From positions 1 through 21,720 of IMG/VR virus record IMGVR_UViG_3300037070_007697: a stretch of DNA of 21,720 nt; one strand, 5' to 3'. The notes beneath the pieces were generated by a model. It was not told the DNA's origin, made no database searches, and was given only the letters and a program-made list of their open reading frames with translations. The translations under genes and the position numbers were made by a program. The first letter of the stretch is position 1. Every line of letters begins with the position of its first letter. Shown here piece by piece: positions 1 through 20,084 of this stretch. The stretch is from a virus.

Positions 1-240
1 GAAGCGGAACACCGGATCGGGCATCACGGGCGGCAGATCACCTTCCGCGACTTCCGCGTAGCTGGCGCTTGAGATCAACAACTCAATGACGCCATAGTCG
101 CGATCAAGGCGGATGTCCACAAGCCGGGCGTCTTCCGGTAGGGGATTGGCGACCACCTCAACGGCTTGCGGCCCACGCGTCAAGTAAAGATTCAGCAAGA
201 AGATATCAGAGATTTGGAGACGTTGGAGACGGCGCGTCAC
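1..240 (-). CDS. Hypothetical phage protein, 3' end cut by window edge
   Basis: Eighty codons are open from a GTG at 240 to the window edge, so only the N-terminus is present. The GTG is chosen because AAGGAGA lies 7 nt upstream on the minus strand, one of the better ribosome sites of the left arm. The visible protein begins with an Arg/Gln/Leu-rich stretch and continues as an acidic, beta-rich sequence with no motif I recognise. It follows the head-morphogenesis gene by 12 bases, so it probably belongs to the same leftward head operon, where a scaffold, decoration or capsid-associated protein would be expected. That role is only inferred from position. Confidence 0.6.
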   Translation of the reverse strand, partial: MTRRLQRLQISDIFLLNLYLTRGPQAVEVVANPLPEDARLVDIRLDRDYGVIELLISSASYAEVAEGDLPPVMPDPVFRF

Positions 241-252
241 GGTGGGTCTCCT

Positions 253-846
253 TCAGGGGAGTTGAAAGCCGGTTTGTCCGCTTGCTGTCCGAGTTACGCA
301 GCGACAGTTTGATAGGCATTGCGTTTCGCCCTGCCCGGGCCAGGTGGGCATATCGTCCGGTCGATAAGGCGAGCGGCTGGCGATCGAGGGGCAATCCGAG
401 CAGGATGCGGCGCCGTCATCGAGCAGCCAATAAATGAGCGTTGTCTCCGGCGGCAGGGTCAGCCCCCACGTCTGGTTCGCGGTGCCGACGAGCCTGCCGG
501 CGTAGAGGGACGCCCGCTGCTGCGCGGCGCCCAGCCTGAAATTCCCCTCGGCGTCGAGGTAGCGGTCATCCTCCAGGTCGGACACGAAGCCGGCGAGGAA
601 CTCGGCCTCGTGGTCAACGATGGTCCGAGCGAAGCGCCGGTCATCCTCCTCGAGCGGGGCGAGGTCGCCGGCGTGGTGGCGGCCGATGACGACGGCTTCG
701 ATGTGGGCTTCCTCGAGGTGTGCTGCCATAAGATCGCCAAACTGGCGCGGTCCGATCTCGCCTGCGGCCACCTGGCCGACGAGGGCGCGGAGCTGCTCCA
801 AGGTGTCGGCGTGGAGGGCGAGGAACTGCTCATGGGAGGTTGCCAT
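253..846 (-). CDS. Phage head-morphogenesis / minor head protein (C-terminal domain type)
   Basis: The C-terminal part carries CSDCPSIASRSPY, then LPT-like MPTWPGQGETQC and NCRC. This Cys-Cys, Pro-Tyr, Pro-Gly-x-Gly-x-Thr-x-Cys, Asn-Cys-x-Cys layout is the usual ending of Mu gpF-like/head-morphogenesis proteins, which take part in capsid assembly near the portal. The N-terminal ~130 residues are helical and acidic. At about 197 residues it is shorter than many relatives, which often carry a longer N-terminal region. ATG 846 is used; a TTG at 876 and GTG at 873 in the same frame would add 9-10 residues, and none has a clear ribosome site. It lies in the leftward structural operon, downstream of a methyltransferase. 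Confidence 0.7.
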   Translation of the reverse strand: MATSHEQFLALHADTLEQLRALVGQVAAGEIGPRQFGDLMAAHLEEAHIEAVVIGRHHAGDLAPLEEDDRRFARTIVDHEAEFLAGFVSDLEDDRYLDAEGNFRLGAAQQRASLYAGRLVGTANQTWGLTLPPETTLIYWLLDDGAASCSDCPSIASRSPYRPDDMPTWPGQGETQCLSNCRCVTRTASGQTGFQLP

Positions 847-959
847 GAAGATCGTTCTATCGCCAACCGTCACCAATGATGCCGCTTATTGGGAGGGCAT
901 CCAGTACTGGAAAGAATGGTGCCTGGCCTATCTGGATCTTTGCGTGCGCTATGCCCTCT

Positions 960-2405
960 TCACTCGAGGCAGTCGGACCAGGCGGCCAGGCGGCGCCGGG
1001 TGATCGCCAGGTATTCCGGGTTCAGCTCGATCGAGACGGCCGAGCGGTTGTGCTTGAGGGCGACGAGGGCCACGGTCCCGGCGCCGCCGAAGGGATCGAG
1101 CGCCGTCGCGGGGATCGGGTCGCCGGCGTTGCAGGTGCAGGTGGGCTGCCAGCCGACCTCCTGCCGCTCCCTATAGGTATTGGGATAGACGGTCTCGACC
1201 TTGCCCCCCGGCCGTGACCAGGCGGAGAGCGAATCGTCTCGCTTGACGGGCGTCACCAGATCGCGAAGCGGCTTGCCATCCTCGCGCCGGAGTTCGCCCT
1301 TCTCCACCACCCGCACCCAGCCCGCCCCACACGCCGGGCAGACGCCCCTGGCGCTCGTGCCGGCGAGGAGACATGGTTCCACGAGTGCTTCAGGAAAAAC
1401 CGCGAAGTGCCCTTCGGGGAAGGGTTGCGGCGTGATCTCCCAGACGGTGCGGCGGTTGCGGCGGCCAGTATCTAGCCAGAGACGGTTCTCGCCTTCGTTG
1501 CCCGTCACCAAGCCGAAAGAGCCACGTCCATTGTCTGCTTGCGTGGCCTTCGACCAATTCGCGATTCCCTTCTGGCGTTGCCGTGCGAAGCCGGACGTTC
1601 CTTCCGAATCTTCTCGGATCGCCTCGGCATCATAGAAGTAGGTTGGTCGCTTGGCAAGCAGGAAGAGATACTCATGGCTGCGGGTCGGCCGGTCGGTGAC
1701 GCTTTCCGGCATCGGATTCGGCTTCGAGTAAATGATGTCGGAGCGCAGATACCACCCCTCCGCTTGCAGCGCGAACGCGAGCCGCCAGGGGACGCCCATG
1801 AGGTCTTTCGGCTTGAGGCCGGTGCCGTCGAAGGCCGCATGGAACTCTGGCCGCCGGTTCTGGCTAAAGCCATTCGTCCAGCCATTCGTATCGGAGGCGG
1901 GCGGCTCCCCCTTCATCCGGGCGTTCTTGTCGCCCCAATAACCGGCGTAAGAATCCCCCATGTTGAGGAACAGTGTGCCATCGTCCCGCAGCACTCTCCA
2001 GACCTGGCGAAACACACCGACCATGGTCTCCAGATACTCGGCCAGCGAGCCTTCCAGCCCGATCTGCCGATCGACACGCCGGGCGCCGCAGTGGCCGCAG
2101 AGGTCGCGGAACTGGGTGACGCGGGTATTCTCCTGCTTCTTCTCGCCGGGCGCGTTCCCCCAACGCTCGTTGAAGCCGACGTTGAGGTTCTGCACCTGCT
2201 CGACATGATCGCAGCCCGGCTCCCCGCCCTCCCACTCCCCCGTTCCGTAATCGCGAAGCCCGAAGTATGGCGGCGAGGTGATGACGCAGTGCACCGACTG
2301 CGCCGGCAGTTCTGCCAGCACCTCGCGGCAATCCCCGAGGAGGAGCCGGGCCTTCGGGCCGCCGGCGTATTCGAGCGGGAGACGCGGGAGGGTGGAGGGT
2401 TTCAT
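960..2405 (-). CDS. DNA methyltransferase (N4-cytosine/N6-adenine type, SPPY motif)
   Basis: This is an S-adenosylmethionine-dependent amino-methyltransferase of the N6_N4_Mtase family. The catalytic motif TSPPYFGLRDYG is near residues 43-54 and the AdoMet-binding motif DPFGGAGT is near 437, so motif IV precedes motif I (beta-type order). Cys pairs CGHC, CPAC and CTC could form zinc knuckles. No restriction enzyme gene is adjacent, which suits an orphan phage enzyme protecting phage DNA or altering its methylation. Start: ATG 2405 lies 32 bases after the portal stop but lacks a clear ribosome site; GTG 2492 would add 29 low-complexity residues and overlap the portal gene. It is embedded between portal and head gene. 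Confidence 0.9.
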   Translation of the reverse strand: MKPSTLPRLPLEYAGGPKARLLLGDCREVLAELPAQSVHCVITSPPYFGLRDYGTGEWEGGEPGCDHVEQVQNLNVGFNERWGNAPGEKKQENTRVTQFRDLCGHCGARRVDRQIGLEGSLAEYLETMVGVFRQVWRVLRDDGTLFLNMGDSYAGYWGDKNARMKGEPPASDTNGWTNGFSQNRRPEFHAAFDGTGLKPKDLMGVPWRLAFALQAEGWYLRSDIIYSKPNPMPESVTDRPTRSHEYLFLLAKRPTYFYDAEAIREDSEGTSGFARQRQKGIANWSKATQADNGRGSFGLVTGNEGENRLWLDTGRRNRRTVWEITPQPFPEGHFAVFPEALVEPCLLAGTSARGVCPACGAGWVRVVEKGELRREDGKPLRDLVTPVKRDDSLSAWSRPGGKVETVYPNTYRERQEVGWQPTCTCNAGDPIPATALDPFGGAGTVALVALKHNRSAVSIELNPEYLAITRRRLAAWSDCLE

Positions 2406-2437
2406 AGGAGCAGGTTCGGCAGTCGTGCCGGCCGTCC

Positions 2438-3829
2438 CTACGCCTCCCGACCGTTCCCGTTCCGCTCGGCGAGTTCCCGCCGCTCGCGCCACTTCCGGGC
2501 GATGTCCTGCCGCACGCTCGCCGCCTGGCGCTGCTCCTCCTCGCGGTCCTGCGGGTTGCCGCCGCGAGCCTGATCTCCCACCGCCCCACTGCTGCTGCTG
2601 TTTTGGGGATAGAGGGAGTCGCCGTCACGGACGGGATCGAGCCCGACCTGGGCGCGTGCTTCATTGACCGAAAGCCAAGGTCCGCCGACGGCCTTGGTCA
2701 GGCGGTCGTGTAGCTTGTCCATGTCTTCTGCCAGGGCCCGAACCTTGCTGTAGTCGCGGCCGAGCCGGATGCCGGGCCGGTAGCCCGACATCTGCGGCAT
2801 AAGCTGGAGGGTGAGCTGGCTGTCGAAGATCCCCTGGAGCGGCATGAGCACCTGTTCATAAGTGCCCTCACGCGCCTGCTCCATGTTCGCGTAAGTCTTA
2901 CTATCCGAAGGCAAGCCGATCAACATCGGGTCGATCCCGAGCGCCGAGAGGATGCGCGGGGTCGGCATCCGGGCGATCTTGTCCAGCGCCATCTGCTCGG
3001 GGCTGAAGCCCAGGTTCTGCACGTCCACCGGGAGCGACGGGATCATGACATCGCCCCGGTTGTCACCCGTGAAGAGGTCGCGGAACAGTTCCTTCATGCG
3101 GGCGGCCACCTCGGGCGGGATCGGCTCGTCAGCGTCTTTGGGACTGATGATCGCGCCAGGCACGCCCATATTCCGGAGAATGCTCGCCGTGTAGGTCTGC
3201 GCCTCGTTATCGGTGCAGATGGCCCGGAGTTCCGCCGCGAGCGGCGAGAGGCCGCGCAGGTAGTTCGCCGGGTCCGTGCCATTCTGGAAATGGATGACGT
3301 CTTCGACCTTCAAGGGGATCGTCTCGCCGTCCCGCCGGTAGTCGTACCGGGTCCGGTAAACGGAGCCGTCTTTGCTGCCGATCGGCGTCATGAGATGGTG
3401 GGGGATGTAGATCAAGCCGACCGGGACACCGGCGCCGGAGCGCTCCACACTCCAGTAAGCATTACCGTCCGCGCACCAGGAGAGGAGCGTCGACATCCAC
3501 AATACGCTCGCGTCATACCAGCGGTTCGGCTGCGCGAGCAGATCGGTTAGCGGGTGCGGCTTAAGCTGCTCCTCTTCGTCACCGACGCGCTCATAGACGA
3601 CGTGGGGGGCGTCCTGCCAGTTGCGCGCGAGCCACTGGGTTGCAGACCAGACCGGTCCCGATAGGTAGAGCGGGCCGGCATCTCTCCGGTAGTCATAGCG
3701 GGCGCCCGGCAGAATCGGGAAGGTGCCACCGAGCCAGGAGCCGCTGCCCCATGACGCCGTTCTATTCGTCGGGAAGCGGAATCGCTTGAGGCCGGCGAGC
3801 CCCCGGCCGATCCGTGTTAGTCCGTTCAT
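2438..3829 (-). CDS. HK97-family phage portal protein
   Basis: The 463-residue product has the organisation of HK97-type portals: an N-terminal segment, the SGPVWSATQWLARNW and LLAQPNRWYDA regions, PLKVEDVIHFQNG, RGLSPLAAELRAI, then IARMPTPRILSALGIDPMLIG and a C-terminal VNEARAQVGLDPVRDGDSLYP segment. The portal forms the dodecameric ring at the capsid vertex through which DNA is packaged and leaves. After SLYPQN comes a Ser run (CAG-type codon repeat) and an Arg/Glu/Gln-rich tail. The 27-nt stretch encoding that junction (2588-2614) recurs at 8372-8398 outside any gene. ATG start; only a weak AAAGGG lies upstream. Length is normal for the family. Confidence 0.95.
   Translation of the reverse strand: MNGLTRIGRGLAGLKRFRFPTNRTASWGSGSWLGGTFPILPGARYDYRRDAGPLYLSGPVWSATQWLARNWQDAPHVVYERVGDEEEQLKPHPLTDLLAQPNRWYDASVLWMSTLLSWCADGNAYWSVERSGAGVPVGLIYIPHHLMTPIGSKDGSVYRTRYDYRRDGETIPLKVEDVIHFQNGTDPANYLRGLSPLAAELRAICTDNEAQTYTASILRNMGVPGAIISPKDADEPIPPEVAARMKELFRDLFTGDNRGDVMIPSLPVDVQNLGFSPEQMALDKIARMPTPRILSALGIDPMLIGLPSDSKTYANMEQAREGTYEQVLMPLQGIFDSQLTLQLMPQMSGYRPGIRLGRDYSKVRALAEDMDKLHDRLTKAVGGPWLSVNEARAQVGLDPVRDGDSLYPQNSSSSGAVGDQARGGNPQDREEEQRQAASVRQDIARKWRERRELAERNGNGREA
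2588..2614. repeat. Dispersed 27-nt repeat, copy A (inside portal gene)
   Basis: On the plus strand it consists of ACTGCTGCTGCTG followed by TTTTGGGGATAGAG. An identical 27-nt copy is at 8372-8398 and a related copy at 5892-5915. In this copy it encodes the Tyr-Pro-Gln-Asn-Ser-Ser-Ser-Ser junction of the portal on the minus strand. Confidence 0.85.
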
Positions 3830-3896
3830 TCGGCGTGAAAGAGCCCTTTAAGTAGGAGGAGGAGGGCGACGGTGAACAGGAAGGTGACATCCAGGG

Positions 3897-4025
3897 TCAG
3901 TCATCGCGGGTGCCGCCGAGAATCCAGAGCATGATGAACCAGAGCGCGAGCAGCACGGCGCCGACAAAGAGGATGCCGCCGGCACAGGCGAGCCAGTATA
4001 AGAAAACGTCGAAGGGACCGATCAC
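3897..4025 (-). CDS. Small single-span membrane protein between terminase and portal
   Basis: A 42-residue product begins at GTG 4025, which overlaps the TGA of the terminase nuclease ORF (GTGA), so translation is probably coupled. Residues ~8-36 form one hydrophobic helix (YWLACAGGILFVGAVLLALW then FIMLWIL), ending in a polar GGTRDD tail. No family is recognised. Right behind it, 3829-3900 on the minus strand is open in another frame from a CTG overlapping the TGA, coding a second hydrophobic peptide (FLFTVALLLLLKGLF) that would end on the portal ATG; without a standard start codon that one is only a possibility. Membrane peptides are unexpected at this place in a packaging operon. Confidence 0.6.
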   Translation of the reverse strand: MIGPFDVFLYWLACAGGILFVGAVLLALWFIMLWILGGTRDD

Positions 4026-4504
4026 GCGACCGTCCAGGTCCGCTTCCCAGCGAGCTTGTTGAACGCCAGAGCGCAGGCGTCTACCTGGTCATCATGGCGA
4101 CCGGCCGGAAAGACGATGAACTCCTCGATGAAGACCTGGTTCCACGTCGCCTTGAGCAGCTTGACGTTTCCGGCCTCAAGCTGCGCCGCGAGCGGCATGG
4201 CGCGGGTCACTTTGTCCCCGGTGGTCCGTTCGGCGCGAATGGTAAAGCCCTGGAGCAGGCGCACGAGGGATGCCGTCACGCTCTTGCCGGAGGAGCCAGG
4301 CTCCTCTTCCACCCAGACCGCCGTGGCAGTGCCATCCATCTGCGCCGTCGTGAGGATGATCTGGTCGCGGGCGTGAGGGGTCCAACGGCCGCGAATGACA
4401 TCCTCCACGTAGAAAAAGCCTTTCGCTGACTTGGCGAGCTTCACGCCGCAGGTCCAGTCCCCCTCCTCGGTCGCCGCCAGATCCCAGGCCCGCACTCGCT
4501 GCAC
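4022..4504 (-). CDS. Terminase large subunit, nuclease domain (separate ORF)
   Basis: The 160 residues match the RNase H-like nuclease domain of phage large terminases, the part that cuts concatemeric DNA. Likely metal ligands are Asp8 (RAWDLAAT), the acidic WVEEEPG segment (Glu66-68) and Asp138/139/142 in HDDQVDA. The ORF starts at GTG 4504 with GGAGGGGG just upstream, a good ribosome site. It lies in the same reading frame as the ATPase ORF, separated only by one TAG and five sense codons, so the two would make one protein of about 499 residues of normal TerL length if the stop were read through. Confidence 0.9.
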   Translation of the reverse strand: MQRVRAWDLAATEEGDWTCGVKLAKSAKGFFYVEDVIRGRWTPHARDQIILTTAQMDGTATAVWVEEEPGSSGKSVTASLVRLLQGFTIRAERTTGDKVTRAMPLAAQLEAGNVKLLKATWNQVFIEEFIVFPAGRHDDQVDACALAFNKLAGKRTWTVA

Positions 4505-4519
4505 GCTTCCCCCTCCGGT

Positions 4520-5521
4520 CTACTCGAGCGGCATGGCGTCCACCAGGGTCAGCCATTCCCGTTGAAAGATGGCTCCCGAGCGCGGCGCCGGCCTCTGTTG
4601 GAGTTGCCCGGCAGCCCGAAGCGGCGTCAGGTCTGCCATCAGGCGCTCGATCTCGACGTCCCCGAAGCGCCCCGGGTCGAGCAGTTCGCCGTCTCGGGTG
4701 CGCGGATCCACGAAGCCGAGGGCGGTCTTGCTCTTGTAAGGGTGATCGGGCTCATAGCGCGCCGGCAGGCAGAGGTGGTCATAGGTTCCCTTGGCGATGA
4801 CGTGGCCGCAGAGATCCTCCTCGTGGACCCGCTGCGCGATGATAACGCGGGCAACGGTCTGCGGATTGTTGCCGCGTGTCGACATCGCCGCGTCCCACCA
4901 GTTGAGCACCTCGCCGCGTTGGACGTCCGACTCGGCCGCCATGACGTTATGCGGATCGTCACACAGAAGCACATCTCCGCCGCTTCCTGTCACCTGCCCG
5001 CCAACCGAGGTAGAGAGCCGGTAGCCGCCGGCGGAGTTATCGAATTGGATCTTGGCGTTTTGATCCTCCATCATCCGAAACCGATCGCCCCAGCGGGATT
5101 GATACCAGGCGGAGGAGATGAGCCGCCGACACTTCACCGAGTCGCGAATGGCGAGGTTCTGGGCGTAGGAGGAGCAGAGCCACCGGGCCGCCGGCTTGTG
5201 GATCCAGACCCACGCCGGCCACATCACCGAAGCGATGGTGCTTTTGGCGCTCCGAGGCGGGATGTTGATAACCAGGTTGCGGATCCGACCTGCCGTGACG
5301 GCTGCCAGGTGATCGCAGATCGCCTCGAGGTGCCAGCCGGGCACGAAGGGGTCGGGGTCCACCTGGGGCCATGCCTGGCAGACGAACTCATAGAGGTTCC
5401 TCTCCGCCAGTTCCGTTTCGACCGTTTCCAGCAGCCTGGGCAGATCCCGCAAGGACACGCTTAATTTCGCGGAGCTGTTCCGTCGAATAGGTGCGGAGAT
5501 CGACTGAGATCGGGCCGCCAT
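4520..5521 (-). CDS. Terminase large subunit, ATPase domain (separate ORF)
   Basis: This is the packaging motor ATPase domain. The Walker A-like INIPPRSAKST is at residues ~86-95, Walker B-like DVLLCDDPHN at ~183-192, and the coupling-type segment IIAQRVHEEDL follows. It ends with AIFQREWLTLVDAMPLE and TAG, exactly where related terminases run on into the nuclease domain. ATG 5521 has AGGAAAGG upstream but overlaps the small-subunit gene by 134 bases; a GTG at 5458 or TTG at 5452 would shorten the overlap and are possible real starts. The protein acts at the portal vertex with TerS and the nuclease domain. Confidence 0.92.
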   Translation of the reverse strand: MAARSQSISAPIRRNSSAKLSVSLRDLPRLLETVETELAERNLYEFVCQAWPQVDPDPFVPGWHLEAICDHLAAVTAGRIRNLVINIPPRSAKSTIASVMWPAWVWIHKPAARWLCSSYAQNLAIRDSVKCRRLISSAWYQSRWGDRFRMMEDQNAKIQFDNSAGGYRLSTSVGGQVTGSGGDVLLCDDPHNVMAAESDVQRGEVLNWWDAAMSTRGNNPQTVARVIIAQRVHEEDLCGHVIAKGTYDHLCLPARYEPDHPYKSKTALGFVDPRTRDGELLDPGRFGDVEIERLMADLTPLRAAGQLQQRPAPRSGAIFQREWLTLVDAMPLE

Positions 5522-5843
5522 CCTTTCCTGCTACCTCCACCCGCTCCGTCCGCGCCCAATCCTCGGGCCGGCGTCGTTCCAGCCACCACGCCGCCGCCTG
5601 CCAGGTGCCGGCCTGCGCCGCCTTGCGGACGACAAGGGTATTGGCCGCTACCGCTTCACTCTCCGCTTTTTCTACCTGGCTCCTAAAACTCTCACTAGAT
5701 GCCTGATAGCGGTAGAGCGTGCTTTCCCCGACGCCACACGCCGCCGCCGCGTCTTTCTTCGGCACGCCAGCCTGCAAGAGTTGCAAGAGCCGATGCTCCA
5801 CCTCCGCCGTAATCGCCGGCGGTCGGCCGCCTTTACCTGCCAT
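5388..5843 (-). CDS. Terminase small subunit (HTH DNA-binding)
   Basis: The product of 151 residues opens with a basic MAGKGGRPP segment and a helix-turn-helix (LLQAGVPKKDAAAACGVGES then TLYRYQ, residues ~20-50), followed by a helical QVEKAESEAVAANTLVVRKA region and WWLERRRPEDWARTERVEV, the typical layout of phage small terminases that recognise the packaging site. ATG 5843 is preferred; TTG 5849 in frame adds two residues. Its 3' end overlaps the large-subunit ORF by up to 134 bases, which is long even for phage genes and makes the large-subunit start doubtful. Confidence 0.85.
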   Translation of the reverse strand: MAGKGGRPPAITAEVEHRLLQLLQAGVPKKDAAAACGVGESTLYRYQASSESFRSQVEKAESEAVAANTLVVRKAAQAGTWQAAAWWLERRRPEDWARTERVEVAGKDGGPISVDLRTYSTEQLREIKRVLAGSAQAAGNGRNGTGGEEPL

Positions 5844-5891
5844 CGTCAACCTGCGTCACGCCCGGCGGGGTCTGAACACCCATCGGGCATC

Positions 5892-5924
5892 CTGCTGCTG
5901 CTGTTTTTAGGATAGGGGGGGGGG
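5892..5924. repeat. Dispersed CTG repeat, copy C, with adjoining G10 tract
   Basis: The sequence CTGCTGCTGCTG is followed by TTTTTAGGATAG, resembling the copies at 2588 and 8372, then runs into ten G residues at 5915-5924. It lies between the ParB-like methyltransferase stop and the terminase small subunit. The homopolymer is a possible slippage or sequencing-error site but is not inside either reading frame. Confidence 0.7.
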
Positions 5925-5933
5925 AGGGAAAGC

Positions 5934-8371: not shown

Positions 8372-8398
8372 ACTGCTGCTGCTGTTTTGGGGATAGAG
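8372..8398. repeat. Dispersed 27-nt repeat, copy B (intergenic)
   Basis: Identical over 27 nt to 2588-2614 in the portal gene. Sequence beyond it also resembles the portal/methyltransferase junction: on the minus strand both regions have AACG-TCGGGAG, then ACGAC, and then TGCCGAACCTGC (8298-8358 against 2408-2452), but here the spacing is much shorter and no frame is kept. Confidence 0.8.
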
Positions 8399-8435
8399 AG
8401 GAGAGGGAAAAAGGCGCAGATTCTTTTCCTCACTA

Positions 8436-11084: not shown

Positions 11085-11096
11085 AGACCAATGCAC

Positions 11097-11119
11097 GCCC
11101 CTCCCCGGCCGGGAGGGGC
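11097..11119 (+). promoter_or_regulatory. Intergenic RNA hairpin before ribosome site (cassette 3)
   Basis: GCCCCTCCC pairs with GGGAGGGGC around loop CGGCC; 19 bases later is ATG 11139. Hairpin arm, spacer and start (GGGAGGGGCAGAAAGA, then GAGGGAGACGATG) are almost identical to cassette 4. Confidence 0.8.
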
Positions 11120-11138
11120 AGAAAGAACGAGGGAGACG

Positions 11139-11372
11139 ATGGAAGCACCAAAGATCGGCGGGAACGGGGAACGATACCTCTTCGTGAGGACAAAGACCGG
11201 GAAGAAGATCCATCTAGCGTCAGCAGGATCCTCCGTCTGTCGGTGTGGCCACTGGCTGAAGACGTCGAGCCGAAACCGCGAGGTGAGCCCACAGAGAGTG
11301 GAATCACAGCACCTCTGCGAAAACTGCTGGACCCCGGCCACGCAGACGGACGCCAAGGCATGGACACGATGA
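11139..11372 (+). CDS. Small Cys-rich (zinc-ribbon-like) protein
   Basis: The 77-residue product starts at ATG 11139 with GAGGGAG upstream. After a short beta segment (RYLFVRTKTGKKIHLASAG) come CRCGHW and HLCENCW, two Cys pairs about 30 residues apart, likely one zinc ribbon. No family is named. Its TGA overlaps the next ATG (11369), so the following gene is probably coupled. Confidence 0.7.
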   Translation: MEAPKIGGNGERYLFVRTKTGKKIHLASAGSSVCRCGHWLKTSSRNREVSPQRVESQHLCENCWTPATQTDAKAWTR

Positions 11373-11596: not shown

Positions 11597-11605
11597 AGAC
11601 GCCGC

Positions 11606-11628
11606 GCCCCTCCCCTACCGGGAGGGGC
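11606..11628 (+). promoter_or_regulatory. Intergenic RNA hairpin before ribosome site (cassette 4)
   Basis: GCCCCTCCC pairs with GGGAGGGGC around loop CTACC; 19 bases later is ATG 11648. Stem, spacing and ribosome site match cassette 3 nearly base for base, while the loop differs. Confidence 0.8.
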
Positions 11629-11647
11629 AGAAAGAGCGAGGGAGACG

Positions 11648-12139
11648 ATGAACGGAGCGATTCTTTTGGCAACCTGCGATCGCTGTGGGGCTAATCAGCA
11701 CCGAGAGGCAATCCGTGAGAGCGGCACGTTCCTCTTCTGCGTCGATGAAGACGGCTGCGTGGCACGCCTTTCGGGCCGCAAGAATGCCGAATGGACGAAG
11801 AGGGCGAAAGAGGCCACGGAAGGTGAAATCTGCTCCGAAGCCATCGCCCATCTCGTCGGCGACGAGACCCTGTGGGAGGCGATCGTGCGGCTTGCGGGAG
11901 AACGGGACGCGGCGCGCCAACAGGTAAGCGAAGCCATCGACCTCCTCGGAGGAGTGATCGATGGCGATGACGTCATCACGGCGGCGGCGGTCTGGCTCGT
12001 CGATGCCGAACGAATCATCTTTCCCACCGCGTTCTGCGACATGAACCGCTGCCAGGAGCCCGCCACCGAGTTCTCCCCCGACGGCGTGGCCAAGTACTGC
12101 GCCCGACACTGGGCCGAGGTGACGAGAGAGCTAGGGTGA
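11648..12139 (+). CDS. Hypothetical protein with N- and C-terminal Cys clusters
   Basis: The 163-residue product opens with LATCDRCGANQHREAIRESG and a following FCVDEDGC, and closes with FCDMNRCQEPATEFSPDG and YCARHW: two separate zinc-site candidates joined by a helical middle (WEAIVRLAGERDAARQQVSE). The C-terminal cluster resembles small treble-clef-like sites found in phage proteins. Function is unknown. ATG 11648 follows GAGGGAG; the stop overlaps the GTG of the next gene. Confidence 0.7.
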   Translation: MNGAILLATCDRCGANQHREAIRESGTFLFCVDEDGCVARLSGRKNAEWTKRAKEATEGEICSEAIAHLVGDETLWEAIVRLAGERDAARQQVSEAIDLLGGVIDGDDVITAAAVWLVDAERIIFPTAFCDMNRCQEPATEFSPDGVAKYCARHWAEVTRELG

Positions 12140-12685: not shown

Positions 12686-13453
12686 ATGGATCCGAAGTTT
12701 ATCGTCTCGCTCCAAGGCCGCGAATATCCACTTTACGCGGGCATTCTGGCCGAAGCGCACGAGCGCGGACTAAAGGCAATCGAGGTGGAGATCGTCCAGA
12801 TTCCAACGCAGGAGAATGAGCATACCGCCATCATGCGGGCGACGGTGATCATGCAAGATGGCGCTAGCTTCAGCGATTACGGCGATGCCAGCCCTCGCAA
12901 CGTGAATAGCAAAATCGCCACCGCACTGTTACGAATGGCCTCGACCAGGGCCAAGGGGCGGGCGCTGCGGGACGCCGTCAATGTTGGACAGACCATGCTC
13001 GAGGAGTTGCCGGATCAGGAGGCTGCCGCCCCGCCTGGGAGCGCCAAGGAGCGCGCGAACGCCGCCCTGCTGGAAACCGCCGCCCGGAATCGGGAGCGCA
13101 TGGCGAGCCTTCCGCAAACCGGCCGCCCGGGTCATGAGAACGGGAAAGCGAAAGCCACTGCCGCCGTTCAGGCCGCCGAAACGGAGACCGTGGCCGATCA
13201 GGTATCTACCCCCGCCGGCCCCGGCTTCGAGGCGTGGTATGAGGACCCCAAAGGCAAGCGGCTTCAACGTATCGCCATGATCTCCGCCTGCCGGTTCGAT
13301 ATCGGCCAGGCGGAAGACCTCGGCCTGACCGTCGAGGCAGTCGAGCCCGAAACGCTTGCGAACCGGGATCTGCACGAGTTCGGACGGGCGCTGCGCGCTT
13401 CGCTCAAGGCACAGAAAACCGCCCGAGAAGGAGGAGCCCCAGGGCCAGGATGA
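12686..13453 (+). CDS. Putative single-strand annealing protein (Rad52/Sak-like)
   Basis: The N-terminal ~105 residues (FIVSLQGREYPLYAGILAEA, EVEIVQIPTQENEHTAIMRA, FSDYGDASPRNV, then RMASTRAKGRALRDAVNVG) have the pattern of a phage/bacterial family close to Rad52- or Sak-type annealing proteins, where a T-R-A-K-x-R-A-L-R helix ends the core. Such proteins pair complementary single strands in recombination and replication. A 70-residue low-complexity linker follows, then a small helical C-terminal domain (RLQRIAMISACRFDIGQAED). Assignment to the superfamily is by motif memory only. Its last 50 bases overlap the converging gene at 13404. Confidence 0.55.
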   Translation: MDPKFIVSLQGREYPLYAGILAEAHERGLKAIEVEIVQIPTQENEHTAIMRATVIMQDGASFSDYGDASPRNVNSKIATALLRMASTRAKGRALRDAVNVGQTMLEELPDQEAAAPPGSAKERANAALLETAARNRERMASLPQTGRPGHENGKAKATAAVQAAETETVADQVSTPAGPGFEAWYEDPKGKRLQRIAMISACRFDIGQAEDLGLTVEAVEPETLANRDLHEFGRALRASLKAQKTAREGGAPGPG

Positions 13454-13871
13454 GCAGCCCACACGCCACTGCCAGACCCACCACCCAGGCGCGCAGGCGG
13501 ATCTCACGCTCGCGCGCCGTCCGCTCTCTCTGCTCCGCCATCGTCCGACCCTCCGAGAGTTCCGGCAGCCGGCTCGCTTCCGCCTCCAGATAGCCGAGCC
13601 GGCTCGCCGCCGCCTCGTGCCGCGCCAGGAGCTCCCGGTAGAGCAAGAGCCACTCCGATGCCGGGTTCGGGACGGGCTCCGGCACGTCTTCCGGCTCGCG
13701 CTCCTCGGCCGGCAGCACCTCTCCCGGTAGCCGCACGCGCCACTGCCGGCCGGCCTTCGTCTCGACCTGCCACGCCTCGACCTGGCCGGCCCGGATCCGT
13801 TTCCGCAACGTCTTCTCGGACAGATCAAGGATCCGGCACGCCTCGCGAAAGTTGACTCCCTCCTCCGTCAC
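13404..13871 (-). CDS. Membrane-anchored helix-turn-helix protein
   Basis: The 155-residue product starts at GTG 13871 with GGAGGT 5 bases upstream. Residues 6-47 form a MerR/excisionase-type HTH (VNFREACRILDLSEKTLRKR, QVEAWQVETKAGRQWRV). A Pro/Glu linker (51-72) leads to a long heptad-like helix (73-125), and residues ~127-150 are one strong membrane span (AWVVGLAVACGLLILALGLL). The DNA-binding part would stay in the cytoplasm. This is the only leftward gene among the early rightward genes and it overlaps the end of the annealing-protein gene tail to tail. It could tether DNA or a promoter to the membrane; no homologue is recalled with certainty. Confidence 0.8.
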   Translation of the reverse strand: MTEEGVNFREACRILDLSEKTLRKRIRAGQVEAWQVETKAGRQWRVRLPGEVLPAEEREPEDVPEPVPNPASEWLLLYRELLARHEAAASRLGYLEAEASRLPELSEGRTMAEQRERTAREREIRLRAWVVGLAVACGLLILALGLLLLGRFSVP

Positions 13872-14799: not shown

Positions 14800-15204
14800 G
14801 TGCAACGCATGAAAGCCTCGATCGAGCGGCTGCGCCGGAGACTCCACCGGGAGATGGTTGCCCTGTGCCTGCTCTGTGGGATCGTCGGGTTTGCGACCGG
14901 CGCTCTGGCCGCGAACACGCTGCCCCACCGGCAGGAGGGCCGGCTCGTCGTCGGCCTGAAGAAACCGCTCACCCCGCTCATGATGCGGGATCTGAACCGG
15001 CTCTTCCCGGGCCGGGTGGTGAGCATGCCGACGAACGGAACCTACGTCCTGCTCCTGCTCTCCAAGGGCCAGACGCCGCTCCAGGTGCAGAAGAAGTCCC
15101 CCCTCATCCTCTTCGTCGAGCCCGAGATCACCATGGGTATTCCGGGGCCGGAGGGAAGCAGGATGCTCCTCATCGCATCCCCTGGTCCAGAAGAAGAGCG
15201 CTGA
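14800..15204 (+). CDS. Secreted stand-alone protease-propeptide (I9-like) paralogue
   Basis: GTG 14800 has GGGAG about 8 bases upstream. A signal peptide or membrane anchor (MVALCLLCGIVGFATGALAA, residues 19-38) is followed by a 65-residue domain, 47-111, that parallels the propeptide of the next gene's subtilisin: EGRLVVGLKKP and ILFVEPEITM here against TGRLIVKFAEP and IEYVEPELVM there. Inhibitor_I9 propeptides fold and inhibit subtilases. A free copy, with no protease domain, next to its protease could be a separate inhibitor, chaperone or immunity factor. The gene lies 28 bases before the protease. Confidence 0.65.
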   Translation: MQRMKASIERLRRRLHREMVALCLLCGIVGFATGALAANTLPHRQEGRLVVGLKKPLTPLMMRDLNRLFPGRVVSMPTNGTYVLLLLSKGQTPLQVQKKSPLILFVEPEITMGIPGPEGSRMLLIASPGPEEER

Positions 15205-15232
15205 ACTGCGGGTCGCGCGGAAAGGCCAATCC

Positions 15233-17032
15233 ATGAGATACCGATTCTGGCCGTCGCTCCTGGGTCTGCTGTTCGCGATCCCGGTTGGGGCCGTGCCCCA
15301 GGCCCCGCTGTCCACCGGCCGGCTCATCGTGAAGTTTGCGGAGCCCCCGCCGCCCCAAAAGCTCCTCTCGCTCGCCATGCACCTCGGCGCGACCTACCTC
15401 AAGGGCGGCACCCAAACTCCCTACGTGCTCGTGAAAGCGACAGGGCGAGAGAGTCTCCACCGGGCGGTAGCGAAAGGGCGCATCGAATACGTTGAGCCGG
15501 AACTGGTCATGTCGAGCCCGGATGTGGGCATCCCAGGCCTGAAATCGCTGGCGCCGCCCCCCCGCCGACTGATCCTGCGCGCCCACGGGATCGGCGCTCC
15601 GGCCTCAGGCTACATGCCGGGGCACGCCTTCGCCTTAGAGGTCCAACCGTCAATCCCCACCGACCCGCTCTTTGGGAGGCAGTGGGGCTTTCAGGACAGC
15701 GGCTACGGATTACGGCTGCCGAGCGCCCGGCGCTATACACTCGGTCAGGGCGTTATCGTCGCCATCGTCGATACGGGCGTCAAGCAAAGCCTCTCCGATC
15801 TGGCGCGCACGGAGTTTTTGCCCGGTTACAATGCGATCACTTCCGGCACCGGGGCGCTCGACGATAACGGACACGGCACGCATATCGCCGGCACCATCGC
15901 GCAGTCCACCAACAACGGGCTGGGATGCGCGGGCATCGCCCCGGCCGCCCGCATCCTGCCGATCAAGGTCCTGAACGCGCAAGGGCTGGGCAGCAACTAC
16001 ACGATCGGGGTGGGAATCCGCTACGCCGTAGACCACGGCGCCCAGGTCATCAACTTGAGTATCGGGGGCGCCGCCTCCCAGACGCTCAAGGATGCCATAA
16101 ACTACGCGCTGAACAAAGGAGTGACGGTGGTCTGCGCCGCCGGAAACGGCGGCACGGGCGCCCTCTCCTATCCGGCCCGCTATGCCGGCGTGATTGCGGT
16201 GGGAGCGAGCGATCAGAGCGGCGCCAAAGCGTCATTCTCGCAGTATGGCCCCGGTCTCTCGCTGCTCGCGCCCGGGAAAGACATCCTCCAGCAGACCTTC
16301 TCCAGGCAAACCGGGCAATCCGGCTACTACTACTACTCGGGCACGAGCATGGCGACCCCCTGCGTGGTGGGCACGGTGGCGCTCTTGAAATCGCTCTCCG
16401 CGTCGCTCTCACCCGTGGAGATCAAGAGCATCCTCACGGGAACGGCACGCGACGTGGGCGCCTCGGGATGGGACCAGATGACGGGAGCGGGTCTTCTCGA
16501 CGCCGCCACCGCTTGCCTCCGGGTCTACCGTCCCGGTCCTGCGCCGATCCCTCCCGGCCCGACCCCGGCCCCTCCCGGTCCCGAGCCGATCCCCTTCCCG
16601 CCCGGTCCGCCCCAACCGGAGCCCGGCGCTCCCCCGCCACCGGACGCCGCTCCCGTGAATCCCGATGCGGTGCAGTCGAACCTGCTTTCACTCTTCAACG
16701 AAGAGCGAACCCGGGCGGGTCTTCAGCCGGTCGCGCTACACGCCGCGCTGACGGATGCGGCCCTACGGCACGCCACCGAGATGGAGGCACGGAACGTCCT
16801 CTCCCACACCGGGGCCAACGGCAGCAATCCCGGCCAACGGTTGACGCGCGCCGGCTACGCCTGGCGCACCTGGGGCGAGATCATCGCCATGGGTCAGCCG
16901 ACGCCGCTCGCGGTGCTCTCTGCCTGGATGAACTCACCCGGCCACCGGGCCATCATCGTGGGCGCGGAGTTTCGAGAGGTGGGGATCGCGAAGGCGGGGG
17001 CTTACTGGTGCGCGACCTGGGGAGCACGGTGA
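15233..17032 (+). CDS. Secreted subtilisin-like (S8) protease fused to a CAP/SCP domain
   Basis: The signal peptide is residues ~1-20 (WPSLLGLLFAIPVGA). A propeptide (28-93) and linker precede the S8 catalytic domain: Asp180 in AIVDTGV, His214 in NGHGTHIAGT, oxyanion Asn305 in AAGNGG and Ser372 in SGTSMATP, so the triad is complete. A Pro/Gly/Glu-rich linker (~430-475) leads to a C-terminal CAP domain (LFNEERTRAG, LRHATEMEARNVLSHTG, WGEIIAMGQPT, WMNSPGHRAIIVG, EVGIAKAGAYW). CAP domains occur in secreted proteins, sometimes with surface or peptidoglycan roles. It likely acts outside the cytoplasm. The stop overlaps the next gene's GTG. A phage-encoded S8-CAP fusion is unusual. Confidence 0.92.
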   Translation: MRYRFWPSLLGLLFAIPVGAVPQAPLSTGRLIVKFAEPPPPQKLLSLAMHLGATYLKGGTQTPYVLVKATGRESLHRAVAKGRIEYVEPELVMSSPDVGIPGLKSLAPPPRRLILRAHGIGAPASGYMPGHAFALEVQPSIPTDPLFGRQWGFQDSGYGLRLPSARRYTLGQGVIVAIVDTGVKQSLSDLARTEFLPGYNAITSGTGALDDNGHGTHIAGTIAQSTNNGLGCAGIAPAARILPIKVLNAQGLGSNYTIGVGIRYAVDHGAQVINLSIGGAASQTLKDAINYALNKGVTVVCAAGNGGTGALSYPARYAGVIAVGASDQSGAKASFSQYGPGLSLLAPGKDILQQTFSRQTGQSGYYYYSGTSMATPCVVGTVALLKSLSASLSPVEIKSILTGTARDVGASGWDQMTGAGLLDAATACLRVYRPGPAPIPPGPTPAPPGPEPIPFPPGPPQPEPGAPPPPDAAPVNPDAVQSNLLSLFNEERTRAGLQPVALHAALTDAALRHATEMEARNVLSHTGANGSNPGQRLTRAGYAWRTWGEIIAMGQPTPLAVLSAWMNSPGHRAIIVGAEFREVGIAKAGAYWCATWGAR

Positions 17033-17733
17033 GACGCTTTCTCTGGCTCTGGCTCGTCGGCCTGCTGCTGCTGTTGGGCTGGCTCTGGATCGTCCTGAAG
17101 GCGACGGTCTTCCGCGCTGGCGCGGCCGTTCCAAAGCCGAAGGAAGTCTGGATGACGGTGCCAGGCTATCCGGTGGGTGAGTTCAAAGAGCCGCCCGTCG
17201 CGATCCTCACCCAGGTTAACGGGAAGACCACGATTCGCCTCAAGCGGTTGGACGATCCGACGCAGACGCTCGAGGCTCCGGTCGAAGCACTCAAGCTGGT
17301 GGATATCTTCTCCCGGCAGACGAAGCTCGGCATCTGCACAGGAAAGACGGCGCTTCGCATCGGGAAGACGCGGCCCCGGAATCGCCGCTATTATTTCAAC
17401 GCGAGAATAGCGTGTGCAGCCTATACCGCCGCGATCCTGAGGCATTGTGGCCGGCCTGGTGGCTCCTTTTCCGCGAGCGCCCAATACGCACAACTCCGCC
17501 GCCGAGGGGCAAAGGTCGTCTCTACCAAGATGAGCACCCGATACAACCCGTATCAAGCCTACCTGAAAAGCGGCGACTTCATTTTCTATCACAAGGCCGG
17601 CGGGCGTATCGGCCATGTGGAAATCTACGTGGGTAGCGGGAAAGTCTCCGGCACCTCCAGCTCGGCAGGGTATGTCGCCATCCGGCGAATTGGTAACAGG
17701 GGCTTCGCGAGGTGCAGTGTATTGCGGCTTTAA
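17029..17733 (+). CDS. Membrane-anchored NlpC/P60-like (CHAP-like) cysteine hydrolase
   Basis: GTG 17029 overlaps the protease TGA (GTGA), with GGGGAG upstream. Residues 4-24 are a membrane anchor. After an SH3-like beta region (~45-95) the C-terminal domain has ARIACAAYTAAILRHCG with candidate nucleophile Cys129, then SGDFIFYHKAG and GRIGHVEIYVGSG with His196, the order and spacing of NlpC/P60 or CHAP peptidoglycan hydrolases. It probably cuts cell-wall peptides at the membrane outer face. The C-terminus NRGFARCSVLRL reappears, diverged, behind the next gene, which points to an insertion event here. Confidence 0.75.
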   Translation: MRRFLWLWLVGLLLLLGWLWIVLKATVFRAGAAVPKPKEVWMTVPGYPVGEFKEPPVAILTQVNGKTTIRLKRLDDPTQTLEAPVEALKLVDIFSRQTKLGICTGKTALRIGKTRPRNRRYYFNARIACAAYTAAILRHCGRPGGSFSASAQYAQLRRRGAKVVSTKMSTRYNPYQAYLKSGDFIFYHKAGGRIGHVEIYVGSGKVSGTSSSAGYVAIRRIGNRGFARCSVLRL

Positions 17734-17742
17734 ACAAAGGAT

Positions 17743-17781
17743 AGTCTCCACACAGAGTAGAACTATATGCGTGAGGAGACT
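17743..17781 (+). promoter_or_regulatory. Hairpin covering the endonuclease ribosome site
   Basis: AGTCTCCACAC (17743-17753) is complementary at 10 of 11 positions to GTGAGGAGACT (17771-17781), with a 17-nt loop. The 3' arm contains the GAGGAG used by ATG 17788, so the fold would block its translation on long transcripts. Confidence 0.65.
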
Positions 17782-17787
17782 GCGAAA

Positions 17788-18468
17788 ATGGCAAACATTC
17801 CCCTAGGCGGATGGCGTGGTGAGGGACGGTTCATTCAGGTGTCGGACCACAGACTCGGAGCATTGCCAACCCTGGAGTGGCGGATCAAGAAGTTTCAGCA
17901 CGGATATGAACAGGTCATCCGAGCCGGATCCGAGGGATGGCGCTTTCCCCTGGCCCGCATCATCATGGCGCAGATCGTTAACCGGTCCTTGTTAAAAACG
18001 GAGCATGTTCATCACCGAGACGAAGATCCGCTCAACAACACGGACGAGAACCTGCTCCTGATGACGAAGGGGCAGCATATCGCGGAACATAACCGGCGCA
18101 ATCGATCCTACGAACGAGCCGAGCAATCCGCGACAGAGAAACGTCGCTCCGATCCCGGCTGCGGCGCCTACCACAATCACAAAAATCGCTGGTCGGCCTA
18201 CTTTCTGGGCAAATATCTCGGAATGTTTCCCACCCAGGAAGAGGCGGCAGCATGCTATCGAAAGGCGCTTGAGGAGGGGATCGACGCCGCCCGGGTCGTC
18301 AGGCGCGATCCGAACAACGAGAACAGGGGGCTGTATTTACAGCCCAGCGGGCGATGGCAAGCCCGGTTTCGTGCCCGAAGTCTCGGCACTTATGACACCA
18401 AGGATGAAGCCATCGCGGCCTATCGAAAGGCCGTCGCCGATCATGAGGCCAATCGAGAGCCAGGATAG
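17788..18468 (+). CDS. HNH endonuclease with two AP2-like domains (homing type)
   Basis: The 226-residue product has an N-terminal HNH nuclease (RFPLARIIMAQI, HVHHRDEDPLNNTDENLLL, KGQHIAEHNR; key residues His73-76, Asn84/Asn88, His97, His101) and two AP2-like DNA-binding repeats at ~125-164 (RWSAYFLGKYLGMFPTQEEA) and ~181-218 (GRWQARFRARSLGTYDTKDE). This is the build of free-standing phage homing endonucleases. ATG 17788 follows GAGGAG; ATG 17767 in frame has none. It lies between the NlpC-like gene and a second copy of that gene's last 12 codons, as expected for an invading element. Confidence 0.92.
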   Translation: MANIPLGGWRGEGRFIQVSDHRLGALPTLEWRIKKFQHGYEQVIRAGSEGWRFPLARIIMAQIVNRSLLKTEHVHHRDEDPLNNTDENLLLMTKGQHIAEHNRRNRSYERAEQSATEKRRSDPGCGAYHNHKNRWSAYFLGKYLGMFPTQEEAAACYRKALEEGIDAARVVRRDPNNENRGLYLQPSGRWQARFRARSLGTYDTKDEAIAAYRKAVADHEANREPG

Positions 18469-18502
18469 GGGCTTCTCAAGGATGAGTGTGCTCCGGTTGT
18501 GA
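18467..18502 (+). pseudogene. Detached copy of the NlpC-like gene's 3' end
   Basis: Right after the endonuclease, AGGGGCTTC and onward encode DRGFSRMSVLRL and TGA, matching NRGFARCSVLRL of the gene ending at 17733 in 9 of 12 residues. No gene leads into it. It is probably the original end of the NlpC-like gene, or the end of a lost second copy, cut off by the endonuclease insertion. Confidence 0.7.
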
Positions 18503-18536
18503 TGACCCGGAACCTCCCGGGAAGGCGGAGGAACCC

Positions 18537-18638
18537 ATGCGGCTGCCGGGCAACTTAACACCGGAAATCTGGTTCTTGCTCGTCCTGTGCCTCCTGCTGC
18601 TGCTGGTCTATTTACAGTTCATTCCGACGCTGTCGTGA
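18537..18638 (+). CDS. 33-residue single-span membrane protein
   Basis: ATG 18537 is preceded by GGCGGAGGAACCC, an excellent ribosome site. The product is one hydrophobic helix (IWFLLVLCLLLLLVYLQF) with short polar ends. The TGA overlaps the GTG of the next membrane gene, so the two are probably coupled. Near an amidase and cell-wall enzymes, a holin-associated or spanin-like role is a guess from context. Confidence 0.7.
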   Translation: MRLPGNLTPEIWFLLVLCLLLLLVYLQFIPTLS

Positions 18639-19042
18639 ACGAGTTATTCGATAGCATTATCAGCGGACTATTAGCCGGTTGGCTACTCCTGTTACTTTTG
18701 GCAGTTGCGGCGGCTCTGGCCGGGGCGGTCTGGATGATCGCCCGGCGGGGCCGCGAGGAGAACGAGATGTCGAATGCAGATTTTCGGGGCGGCGTGAAGA
18801 GCGGCGTGCTGGACGCCGAGGTGAAGGCCGGGGCCGGAACGGAGGGAGTTTCCGGCTCGCTGGACGTGGCGCTCAAGCCTGAGGTGCGGGATCTGGTCTC
18901 GGCGGCGTCGGGGATGCTGCTTGCGGGGCTCGCGGGACCGTGGGGACCGGCGGTGCTGGTGGCGGCCGGCGCGGGGCTCTGGCTCTACCGGAAGCAGAAG
19001 GCAAAATCCACGCCGCCGGGACCGGGCACGCCCGGACGCTGA
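18635..19042 (+). CDS. Two-span membrane protein, possible holin-like, with internal start
   Basis: GTG 18635 overlaps the upstream stop. The 135 residues have one membrane helix at 12-36 (LLAGWLLLLLLAVAAALAGA), a middle part with polar beta-like repeats (VKSGVLDAEVKAGAGTEGVS) and a second hydrophobic region at 90-117, then a basic Pro/Gly tail. An internal ATG at 18767 has GAGGAG before it and would give a shorter form lacking the first helix. Dual-start membrane proteins are known among holins, but no holin family is recognised here. Confidence 0.65.
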   Translation: MNELFDSIISGLLAGWLLLLLLAVAAALAGAVWMIARRGREENEMSNADFRGGVKSGVLDAEVKAGAGTEGVSGSLDVALKPEVRDLVSAASGMLLAGLAGPWGPAVLVAAGAGLWLYRKQKAKSTPPGPGTPGR

Positions 19043-19545
19043 TGGGGGCACGGCGCCTGACGGAACGGCGCCGGGGCCGGCGCGCCAAGGAGCGTGGCGG
19101 CGACGAACGGCGCTGCACCTGGCACGTCGAGCCGGTAACGACGGATCTGTTCGCACCGCGTCCACCTGAGGGCACGGTGCGCATCGCCCGGAGGGGGGAT
19201 CAAGTCCTCTGGGCCAGTGACGTCCCCGGCTTCTGGGAGTTCCGGGCCTTCCTGACGCCGGCGCTCTCGCGGCCGGGGGAAGGTCCGGTCTGGGCGATCA
19301 GAGGAGACGAGGAGATGCCACGGATCGCGAAGGCAAACGCGCTCTTGCAAGCGGAACGGCTCGAGGACGACATCGAGGCGCCGGGCCCCGGCGGCATTCC
19401 CATGACGATCGGGGCCAGCGGCGACTGGGCGACCTACGCCGAGACGCCGGACGGTGAGCTAATCTTCAAGGGGTTTCTGACGGATCTTGAGTATAGAGAA
19501 AAATGGGTGCGCGTCGAGGGCGGCCGGCTCATGGAGCGGCGCTAG
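19042..19545 (+). CDS. Hypothetical protein, possibly translated in two forms
   Basis: ATG 19042 overlaps the preceding TGA by one base. The 167-residue product has a basic Arg-rich start (ARRLTERRRGRRAKERGG), then a beta-like middle (VRIARRGDQVLWASDVPGFW). An in-frame ATG at 19315 is preceded by AGGAGACGAGGAG, so a 76-residue C-terminal form (ANALLQAERLEDD, DWATYAETPDGELIFKGF) may also be made or be the main product. The end shares a CTAG with the stop of the converging amidase gene. Family unknown. Confidence 0.6.
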   Translation: MGARRLTERRRGRRAKERGGDERRCTWHVEPVTTDLFAPRPPEGTVRIARRGDQVLWASDVPGFWEFRAFLTPALSRPGEGPVWAIRGDEEMPRIAKANALLQAERLEDDIEAPGPGGIPMTIGASGDWATYAETPDGELIFKGFLTDLEYREKWVRVEGGRLMERR

Positions 19546-20084
19546 GTTTGTAGCAGCCGCCCAACCCGGATCCGCAGCTCCGCGCCCGGGGTCATGTCTT
19601 CCCACTCCTCGCCAGCCGGCCAGGAGCGAACGCTGACATCCCATTTTCCCCTCTGAACCCGGCCGTATACGTCTTCCACCTCACAGTGCATCAAGAGCCC
19701 CCGCTCGTCCGGTTTGATCGAATAACGCCGGCAGAGGTCGGCCGCCGCGATGATGGCCGCGTTCCACTGGACGCGCGTCAAGGGGAACGGTCCCGGCGCG
19801 AACGGCTTCTCATTGGCGCCAGCCATCCCGCAGAGGGACAACCCGATACTCCCGGTGTTCAGCCCGCGCGTATGGGCCGCATAATCGCCGTCGGCGGTCG
19901 AGAGGTTGTCGGTGATCGCATGCTCGCCCCGGTGGACGTGACCGACCCGATTGACCAGGATATGGTAGGCTTCCAGATCCTCGGCAGAGGGAAAAGAAGC
20001 CCCCGCTGTCCAGTGGCAGACGATCCTCTTGATGCTACCCGCCGGGCAGGCCGGCATCCAATCTCCCGGGATCACTTTCGGCAT
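19542..20084 (-). CDS. N-acetylmuramoyl-L-alanine amidase (Amidase_2), endolysin
   Basis: The 180-residue product matches type 2 amidases, which cut between muramic acid and the stem peptide. Probable zinc ligands are His24 (RIVCHWTAG), His133 (LLMHCEVED) and Asp149 (GKWDV); YHILVNRVGHVHRG and AAHTRGLNTGSIGLSLCG give the substrate groove and core strands. There is no signal peptide or separate wall-binding domain, so release probably needs a holin. ATG 20084 is chosen because GGGAGG lies 9 bases upstream; the frame extends to 20156 without support. It has its own leftward promoter and converges on the small membrane gene cluster. Confidence 0.9.
   Translation of the reverse strand: MPKVIPGDWMPACPAGSIKRIVCHWTAGASFPSAEDLEAYHILVNRVGHVHRGEHAITDNLSTADGDYAAHTRGLNTGSIGLSLCGMAGANEKPFAPGPFPLTRVQWNAAIIAAADLCRRYSIKPDERGLLMHCEVEDVYGRVQRGKWDVSVRSWPAGEEWEDMTPGAELRIRVGRLLQT

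Follow-up and report, generated by a model that had tools for sequence, protein, structure and literature searches.

The locus lies in a window of 21,720 nucleotides (the whole stretch of DNA analysed, a 21.7 kb fragment filed as an IMG/VR virus record) and comprises three plus-strand genes packed between positions 14800 and 17733. Gene 1 (14800..15204, starting with GTG at 14800 or ATG at 14809) encodes P0001, a stand-alone paralogue of a subtilase propeptide. Gene 2 (15233..17032) encodes P0002, a predicted exported protease in which Pfam recognizes an S8 and a CAP domain, and gene 3 (17029..17733) encodes P0003, a predicted exported or membrane-anchored NlpC/P60-like protein. A 28-base gap separates the end of gene 1 at 15204 from the start of gene 2 at 15233, and the stop codon of gene 2 overlaps the GTG start of gene 3 by four bases (GTGA, 17029-17032). 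A preliminary description of this DNA had placed the three ORFs and both junctions in just these positions. It had also called the set secreted or membrane-bound, which agrees with the hydropathy profiles, as a hydrophobic export-type N-terminus is present on all three proteins; export of P0001, P0002, and P0003 is thus predicted from N-terminal hydropathy. The three ORFs of that description stand, but it overlooked that the run of genes goes on past 17733 to 19042, with an HNH gene and, behind it, three genes for small membrane proteins. As to the operon limits, no sigma-70-like promoter or terminator was found in their support, and the search for a structured leader RNA gave no Rfam match and a fold z of about -1.7.

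The window carries a portal gene (Phage_portal, 1.9e-55), a terminase, two DNA methyltransferases, and an Amidase_2 endolysin, and therefore belongs to a tailed phage. Positions 4-5917 recur with 100% identity in a second contig, from a different sample, so that this stretch is no assembly accident. Three copies of the repeat CTGCTGCTGCTGTTTT(G)GGGATAG occur at 2589-2629, 5892-5932, and 8373-8413, one in the 3' part of the portal gene and two apparently intergenic, and the second contig ends at the 5892 copy. Two 46-base stretches between small genes, at 11096-11141 and 11605-11650, form a direct repeat (93%) with a GC-rich inverted repeat inside it; the repeated element may be regulatory or a terminator. 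As for the host, portal matches with E < 1e-80 were found in 3 of 350 Chloroflexota genomes and in none of the 349 and 346 genomes searched in the phyla of a Rubrivivax and a Streptomyces genome. The Chloroflexota matches reach about 39% identity and their genomes have no further gene in common with the window, so this phylum is a weak lead drawn from a single protein.

A related phage was found as the 63.9 kb viral contig IMGVR_UViG_3300036851_000534 (loci L002, L083-L085, and L138), with identities to the window of 62% for the portal, 72% for the terminase, and 72% for a MuF-like protein. Window positions 12734-13056 map to the start of this contig and those from 13533 onward to its end; because the window spans both contig ends in order, the map of the relative is probably circular and about complete. 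The large terminase is a single ORF in the relative (L085 243-1712) and two minus-strand ORFs in the window (4520-5521 and 4022-4504, together spanning 4022-5521), a split due to a frameshift, a sequencing error, or a split gene. Upstream of the module, both phages encode on the minus strand a conserved protein with an excisionase-type HTH, a TM helix at its C-terminus, and possibly a coiled coil (window 13404-13860; L083 1660-2196). The relative also carries a gene for an NrS-1-type primase-polymerase/helicase (PF22763, PF08706) at L083 10327-12972.

The product of gene 2 is laid out as a signal, a propeptide (about residues 26-96), an S8 domain (171-420), a proline-rich linker, and a CAP domain (485-588). 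Pfam scores Peptidase_S8 (PF00082) at 3e-56 and CAP (PF00188) at 3e-17, the latter with 64 bits against a cut-off of 21.1, and Savinase is the best solved relative. The S8 residues D180, H214, N305 (oxyanion), and S372 are invariant in both phages, and the CAP residues H513, E549, and H571 are intact in both. Domain matches and alignments thus support P0002 as a predicted S8-CAP protease with intact catalytic residues. An identity as a mycosin was rejected as the score fell under the mycosin cut-off, and a defence system was likewise set aside, since the only matches were to generic subtilase and IetS-like entries.

P0001 begins with a basic n-region and a hydrophobic stretch, followed by a possible AxA cleavage site near residue 34, an I9-like core (residues 43-112), and a tail about 20 residues long. 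BLASTP aligns it to the propeptide of P0002 with 30% identity over 90 residues (E 1e-4) and, similarly, to the protease propeptide of the relative. In shuffling tests, the alignment to the P0002 propeptide has a z of 5.8, with none of 2000 shuffles reaching its score, and that to the relative's propeptide a z of 4.9 (2 of 2000 shuffles), whereas z is about 0 when the partner is gene 3 or the remainder of the protease. The Pfam and NCBIfam I9 models match neither P0001 nor the phage proteases' own propeptides, and a PDB search with the propeptide profile returned no sequence match. AlphaFold2 models the core as beta-alpha-beta-alpha-beta with a pLDDT of about 70-80, for which the top Foldseek structures are pro-subtilisin E, the BPN' prosegment, fervidolysin, PAM protease, and POIA1. 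Residues 43-112 align to residues 7-77 of the BPN' prosegment (1spb_P, 68 residues) with a Z of 7.2 and an rmsd of 2.6. The fold alone is not decisive, because this moderate-confidence model matches other ferredoxin-like folds almost as well.

The residues by which a propeptide would hold its protease are also kept. Glu104 and Glu106 of P0001 fall on the helix-capping Glu69 and Asp71 of BPN', and Met109 falls on the P4 residue of the S4 pocket. All three are invariant in P0001 and the two phage protease propeptides, and their spacing matches that of BPN' and PfSUB1. Capping acids and a hydrophobic P4 residue are the features used for the malarial inhibitor SUB1-ProM (PMC6993865). Together, sequence comparison and the model support P0001 as a true, I9-like paralogue of the P0002 propeptide. 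The preliminary description had proposed this paralogy, which the alignment statistics bear out, and it had staked the proposal on an I9-like fold, which the resemblance of the predicted core to subtilisin propeptides favours.

Gene 1 is not decaying debris. Its codon-position GC of 0.67/0.44/0.86 is a coding signature, with a contrast of 0.42. Between P0001 and the P0002 propeptide, 60% of synonymous sites differ (pS 0.60); this matches the distance between the two phages, for which pS is 0.55-0.61 in most genes, and the propeptide duplication is therefore old. When neutral decay of propeptide DNA was simulated (a simple substitution model at 65% GC), the frame stayed open in 96-247 of 2000 runs (about 5-12%), and the GC contrast of 0.42 was reached in none of 2000 at every distance tried.

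In P0003, the NLPC_P60 match of Pfam is marginal (24.1 bits against a cut-off of 23) and confined to the C-terminal half (GDFxFyhk...HvEIYVG), the half with the cysteine being without a Pfam match. C129 and H196 are invariant in both phages. Alignment to solved NlpC/P60 hydrolases puts G208 at the third catalytic position in both, and activity is uncertain because the canonical third residue is thus replaced by glycine; the structure model is too poor to place a substitute. The preliminary label of peptidoglycan enzyme is therefore uncertain, and P0003 is a possible peptidoglycan enzyme as judged from sequence. A permuted papain, with its cysteine near the C-terminus, was rejected since the relative does not conserve that cysteine.

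Behind gene 3 stands an HNH homing-endonuclease-like gene (17767..18468, plus strand), followed at 18467..18502 by a second copy of the gene 3 tail. The HNH gene does not occur at this place in the relative, and by this comparison it is an insertion. The tail copy (RGFSRMSVLRL*) spans 11 codons that differ from those at the end of gene 3 itself (RGFARCSVLRL*) and from the relative's (RGFKLMTVLRL*). The end of gene 3 is thus duplicated on the far side of the insertion (17767-18502), which left the target frame whole. That gene 3 stayed whole after the insertion suggests that this gene and its C-terminus matter.

Three small plus-strand genes for membrane proteins follow. The 33-residue single-TM protein MRLPGNL... 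(18537..18638) is conserved in the relative at 69% identity with a pN/pS of 0.60, and the 91-residue protein with a C-terminal TM region (18767..19042) at 66% identity with a pN/pS of 0.44. Between them, a 45-residue single-TM ORF with a GTG start (18635..18769) overlaps the preceding gene; the relative has an unlike 31-residue TM ORF nearby. None of these proteins matches a holin family, and the 91-residue protein is a holin-like candidate from its size and place only. The Amidase_2 endolysin (19542..20084, minus strand) is convergent with the module; the relative's copy, 66% identical, is at the matching place and likewise on the opposite strand. Being on the other strand, the endolysin is outside the transcript of the module. 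Of the two parts of a lysis cassette, an endolysin with a holin beside it, the endolysin is present and the holin is putative. A 76-residue protein (MPxIxKANAL...), encoded after the small TM genes and before the endolysin, is conserved in both phages; it lies on the plus strand in the window (19315-19545) and on the minus strand in the relative (L083 6763-6996), so that the segment is inverted.

The two phages share the gene order protease-CAP, NlpC-like protein, 33-residue TM protein, 91-residue TM protein, and amidase endolysin. The protease-CAP and NlpC-like proteins are 50% and 54% identical, and their genes are coupled by a four-base overlap in both, GTGA in the window and ATGA in the relative. 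A profile search across the whole contig of the relative found the protease's own propeptide and no free one. The expectation of the preliminary description that the three-gene order would recur is therefore not borne out: the conserved unit is genes 2 and 3, and the free propeptide is not essential to the module. Conclusions on the locus rest on these two genomes. Contig scans used exact short peptide patterns, by which distant relatives can be missed; with these, P0001 and P0003 found nothing singly among viral contigs, and the 91-residue TM protein and P0005 found the same relative only. The NlpC-like alignment recovered that one relative, nothing in genome contigs, and none in the 350 Chloroflexota genomes; P0003 had no match in phages or plasmids. 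Among 52 loci of endolysin relatives, the module is in none except the known relative within the DNA compared. A profile built from three sequences found no free propeptide beside other phage S8 genes in the loci compared.

Among known systems, the closest functional parallel to P0001 and P0002 is the Plasmodium pair SUB1/SUB1-ProM. SUB1-ProM, whose gene adjoins subtilase genes, resembles a propeptide but stands alone and inhibits a subtilase of egress; its structure is closest to the SUB1 propeptide, with the capping residues and the hydrophobic P4 residue kept (PMC6993865). The pair differs from the phage set in belonging to a eukaryotic parasite and in having neither a CAP domain nor a peptidoglycan or membrane partner; its inhibition was measured, whereas P0001 is a putative inhibitor. 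POIA1, the yeast peptidase B inhibitor, Arabidopsis SPI-1, and TgMIC5 are, like P0001, propeptide folds made as gene products of their own. The first three are without significant sequence similarity (PMC6993865), unlike P0001, a detectable paralogue of its neighbour's propeptide. Compared with stand-alone I9 inhibitors, P0001 adds an export-type N-terminus and its tail of some 20 residues. Free-standing propeptide inhibitors named in PMC6993865 come from fungi, a plant, and protists. No bacterial or phage example was met in titles and abstracts, which is weak evidence as subscription literature is thinly covered at this level.

The partners have separate parallels. Bacillus phages Goe8, FADO, and PJN02 also encode an S8 catalytic domain; phage S8 proteases are 25-45% identical to P0002, mainly over this domain, and among the phage matches listed the CAP domain is uncovered and no S8-CAP fusion occurs. 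Bacterial YkwD-type CAP proteins share the conserved His/Glu/His of P0002, and in none of the 11 closest cellular CAP loci found is CAP fused to S8. NlpC/P60 peptidases share Cys129 and His196 with P0003, which differs by the glycine at the third catalytic position.

The reading put forward here, tentatively and at somewhat below even chances, is that of an exported module for breaking the envelope, located next to the lysis region, in which a free propeptide restrains the protease in trans or aids its folding. Gene 2 would supply a secreted subtilase cutting a hypothetical host protein layer or surface proteins, its C-terminal CAP domain probably helping its action at the cell surface, and gene 3 would add an NlpC/P60-like partner, also exported. 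Disruption of the membrane and the wall would fall to the small TM proteins and the amidase endolysin. Gene 1, an I9-type propeptide sharing its family origin with that of the protease, would yield an exported product that binds the mature protease in trans and keeps it inactive, or aids its folding, until release is due late in the infection. Among the roles raised in the preliminary description, that of lysing an envelope layer is favoured by the small TM proteins and the endolysin, which are conserved, but the lysis role itself stays conjectural; the other two, a superinfection block and a toxin-immunity pair, are possible roles. The sharper claim that phage lysis here includes a third, proteolytic step, with the subtilase-CAP protein held by a trans propeptide inhibitor of the same operon, is rather unlikely.

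Another possible, if doubtful, explanation is an accessory module for surface remodelling or superinfection, made in infection or lysogeny, whose exported protease trims host surface proteins or digests outside proteins while the free propeptide shields the producing cell; the lysis side would then be simply a common place for accessory genes. In its favour, S8 proteases are widespread in other phages, CAP relatives from cells stand alone and have export-like N-termini, the endolysin gene runs on the other strand, and the free propeptide varies between the two phages as accessory genes do. Yet, the block of protease, NlpC-like, and small TM genes persists in both phages at 50-69% identity, like core genes, and the proteins scanned (a non-exhaustive set) include no integrase. 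That genes 2 and 3 encode virion (tail) proteins for entry is very improbable: the PHROG matches of P0003 are tail lysins, albeit weak (4.5e-05), but the export-type N-termini of both proteins and their place, far from the structural genes and adjoining the endolysin, point away from the tail.

For gene 1 itself, a role mainly as a trans folding chaperone (foldase) and not as a timing inhibitor is improbable. Subtilase propeptides are intramolecular chaperones that also bind the mature enzyme tightly (PMC6993865), and P0001 retains the fold and the binding residues; however, the stand-alone relatives known from PMC6993865 act as inhibitors, and P0002 has its own complete propeptide, so that a second foldase would be unneeded. 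A non-functional remnant of the propeptide duplication would fit the absence of gene 1 from the relative and the fast divergence of propeptides (pN/pS 0.70 between those of the two phage proteases), but an ORF still open at such synonymous distance, with its own export-like N-terminus and a GC contrast that none of 2000 neutral simulations reached, makes this quite improbable. Subtilisin propeptides sometimes inhibit heterologous subtilisins (PMC6993865), and P0001 might thus be aimed at a host or competitor subtilase, shielding virions or lysis proteins from proteolysis; there is very little chance of this, as gene 1 directly precedes the protease gene and is homologous to the protease's own propeptide.

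No phage system with a lysis-side protease and a separate propeptide seems to have been described before. A free propeptide encoded by a phage, adjacent to a protease with a similar propeptide, would be an example from a prokaryotic virus whose ancestry is clear. Were the protease to act in release, lysis would include a proteolytic step in addition to holin, endolysin, and spanin, which would bear on how phages exit from hosts covered by protein layers. A lysis system with such a step and a trans propeptide inhibitor, if true, would be the phage equivalent of the egress protease of malaria parasites with its inhibitor.
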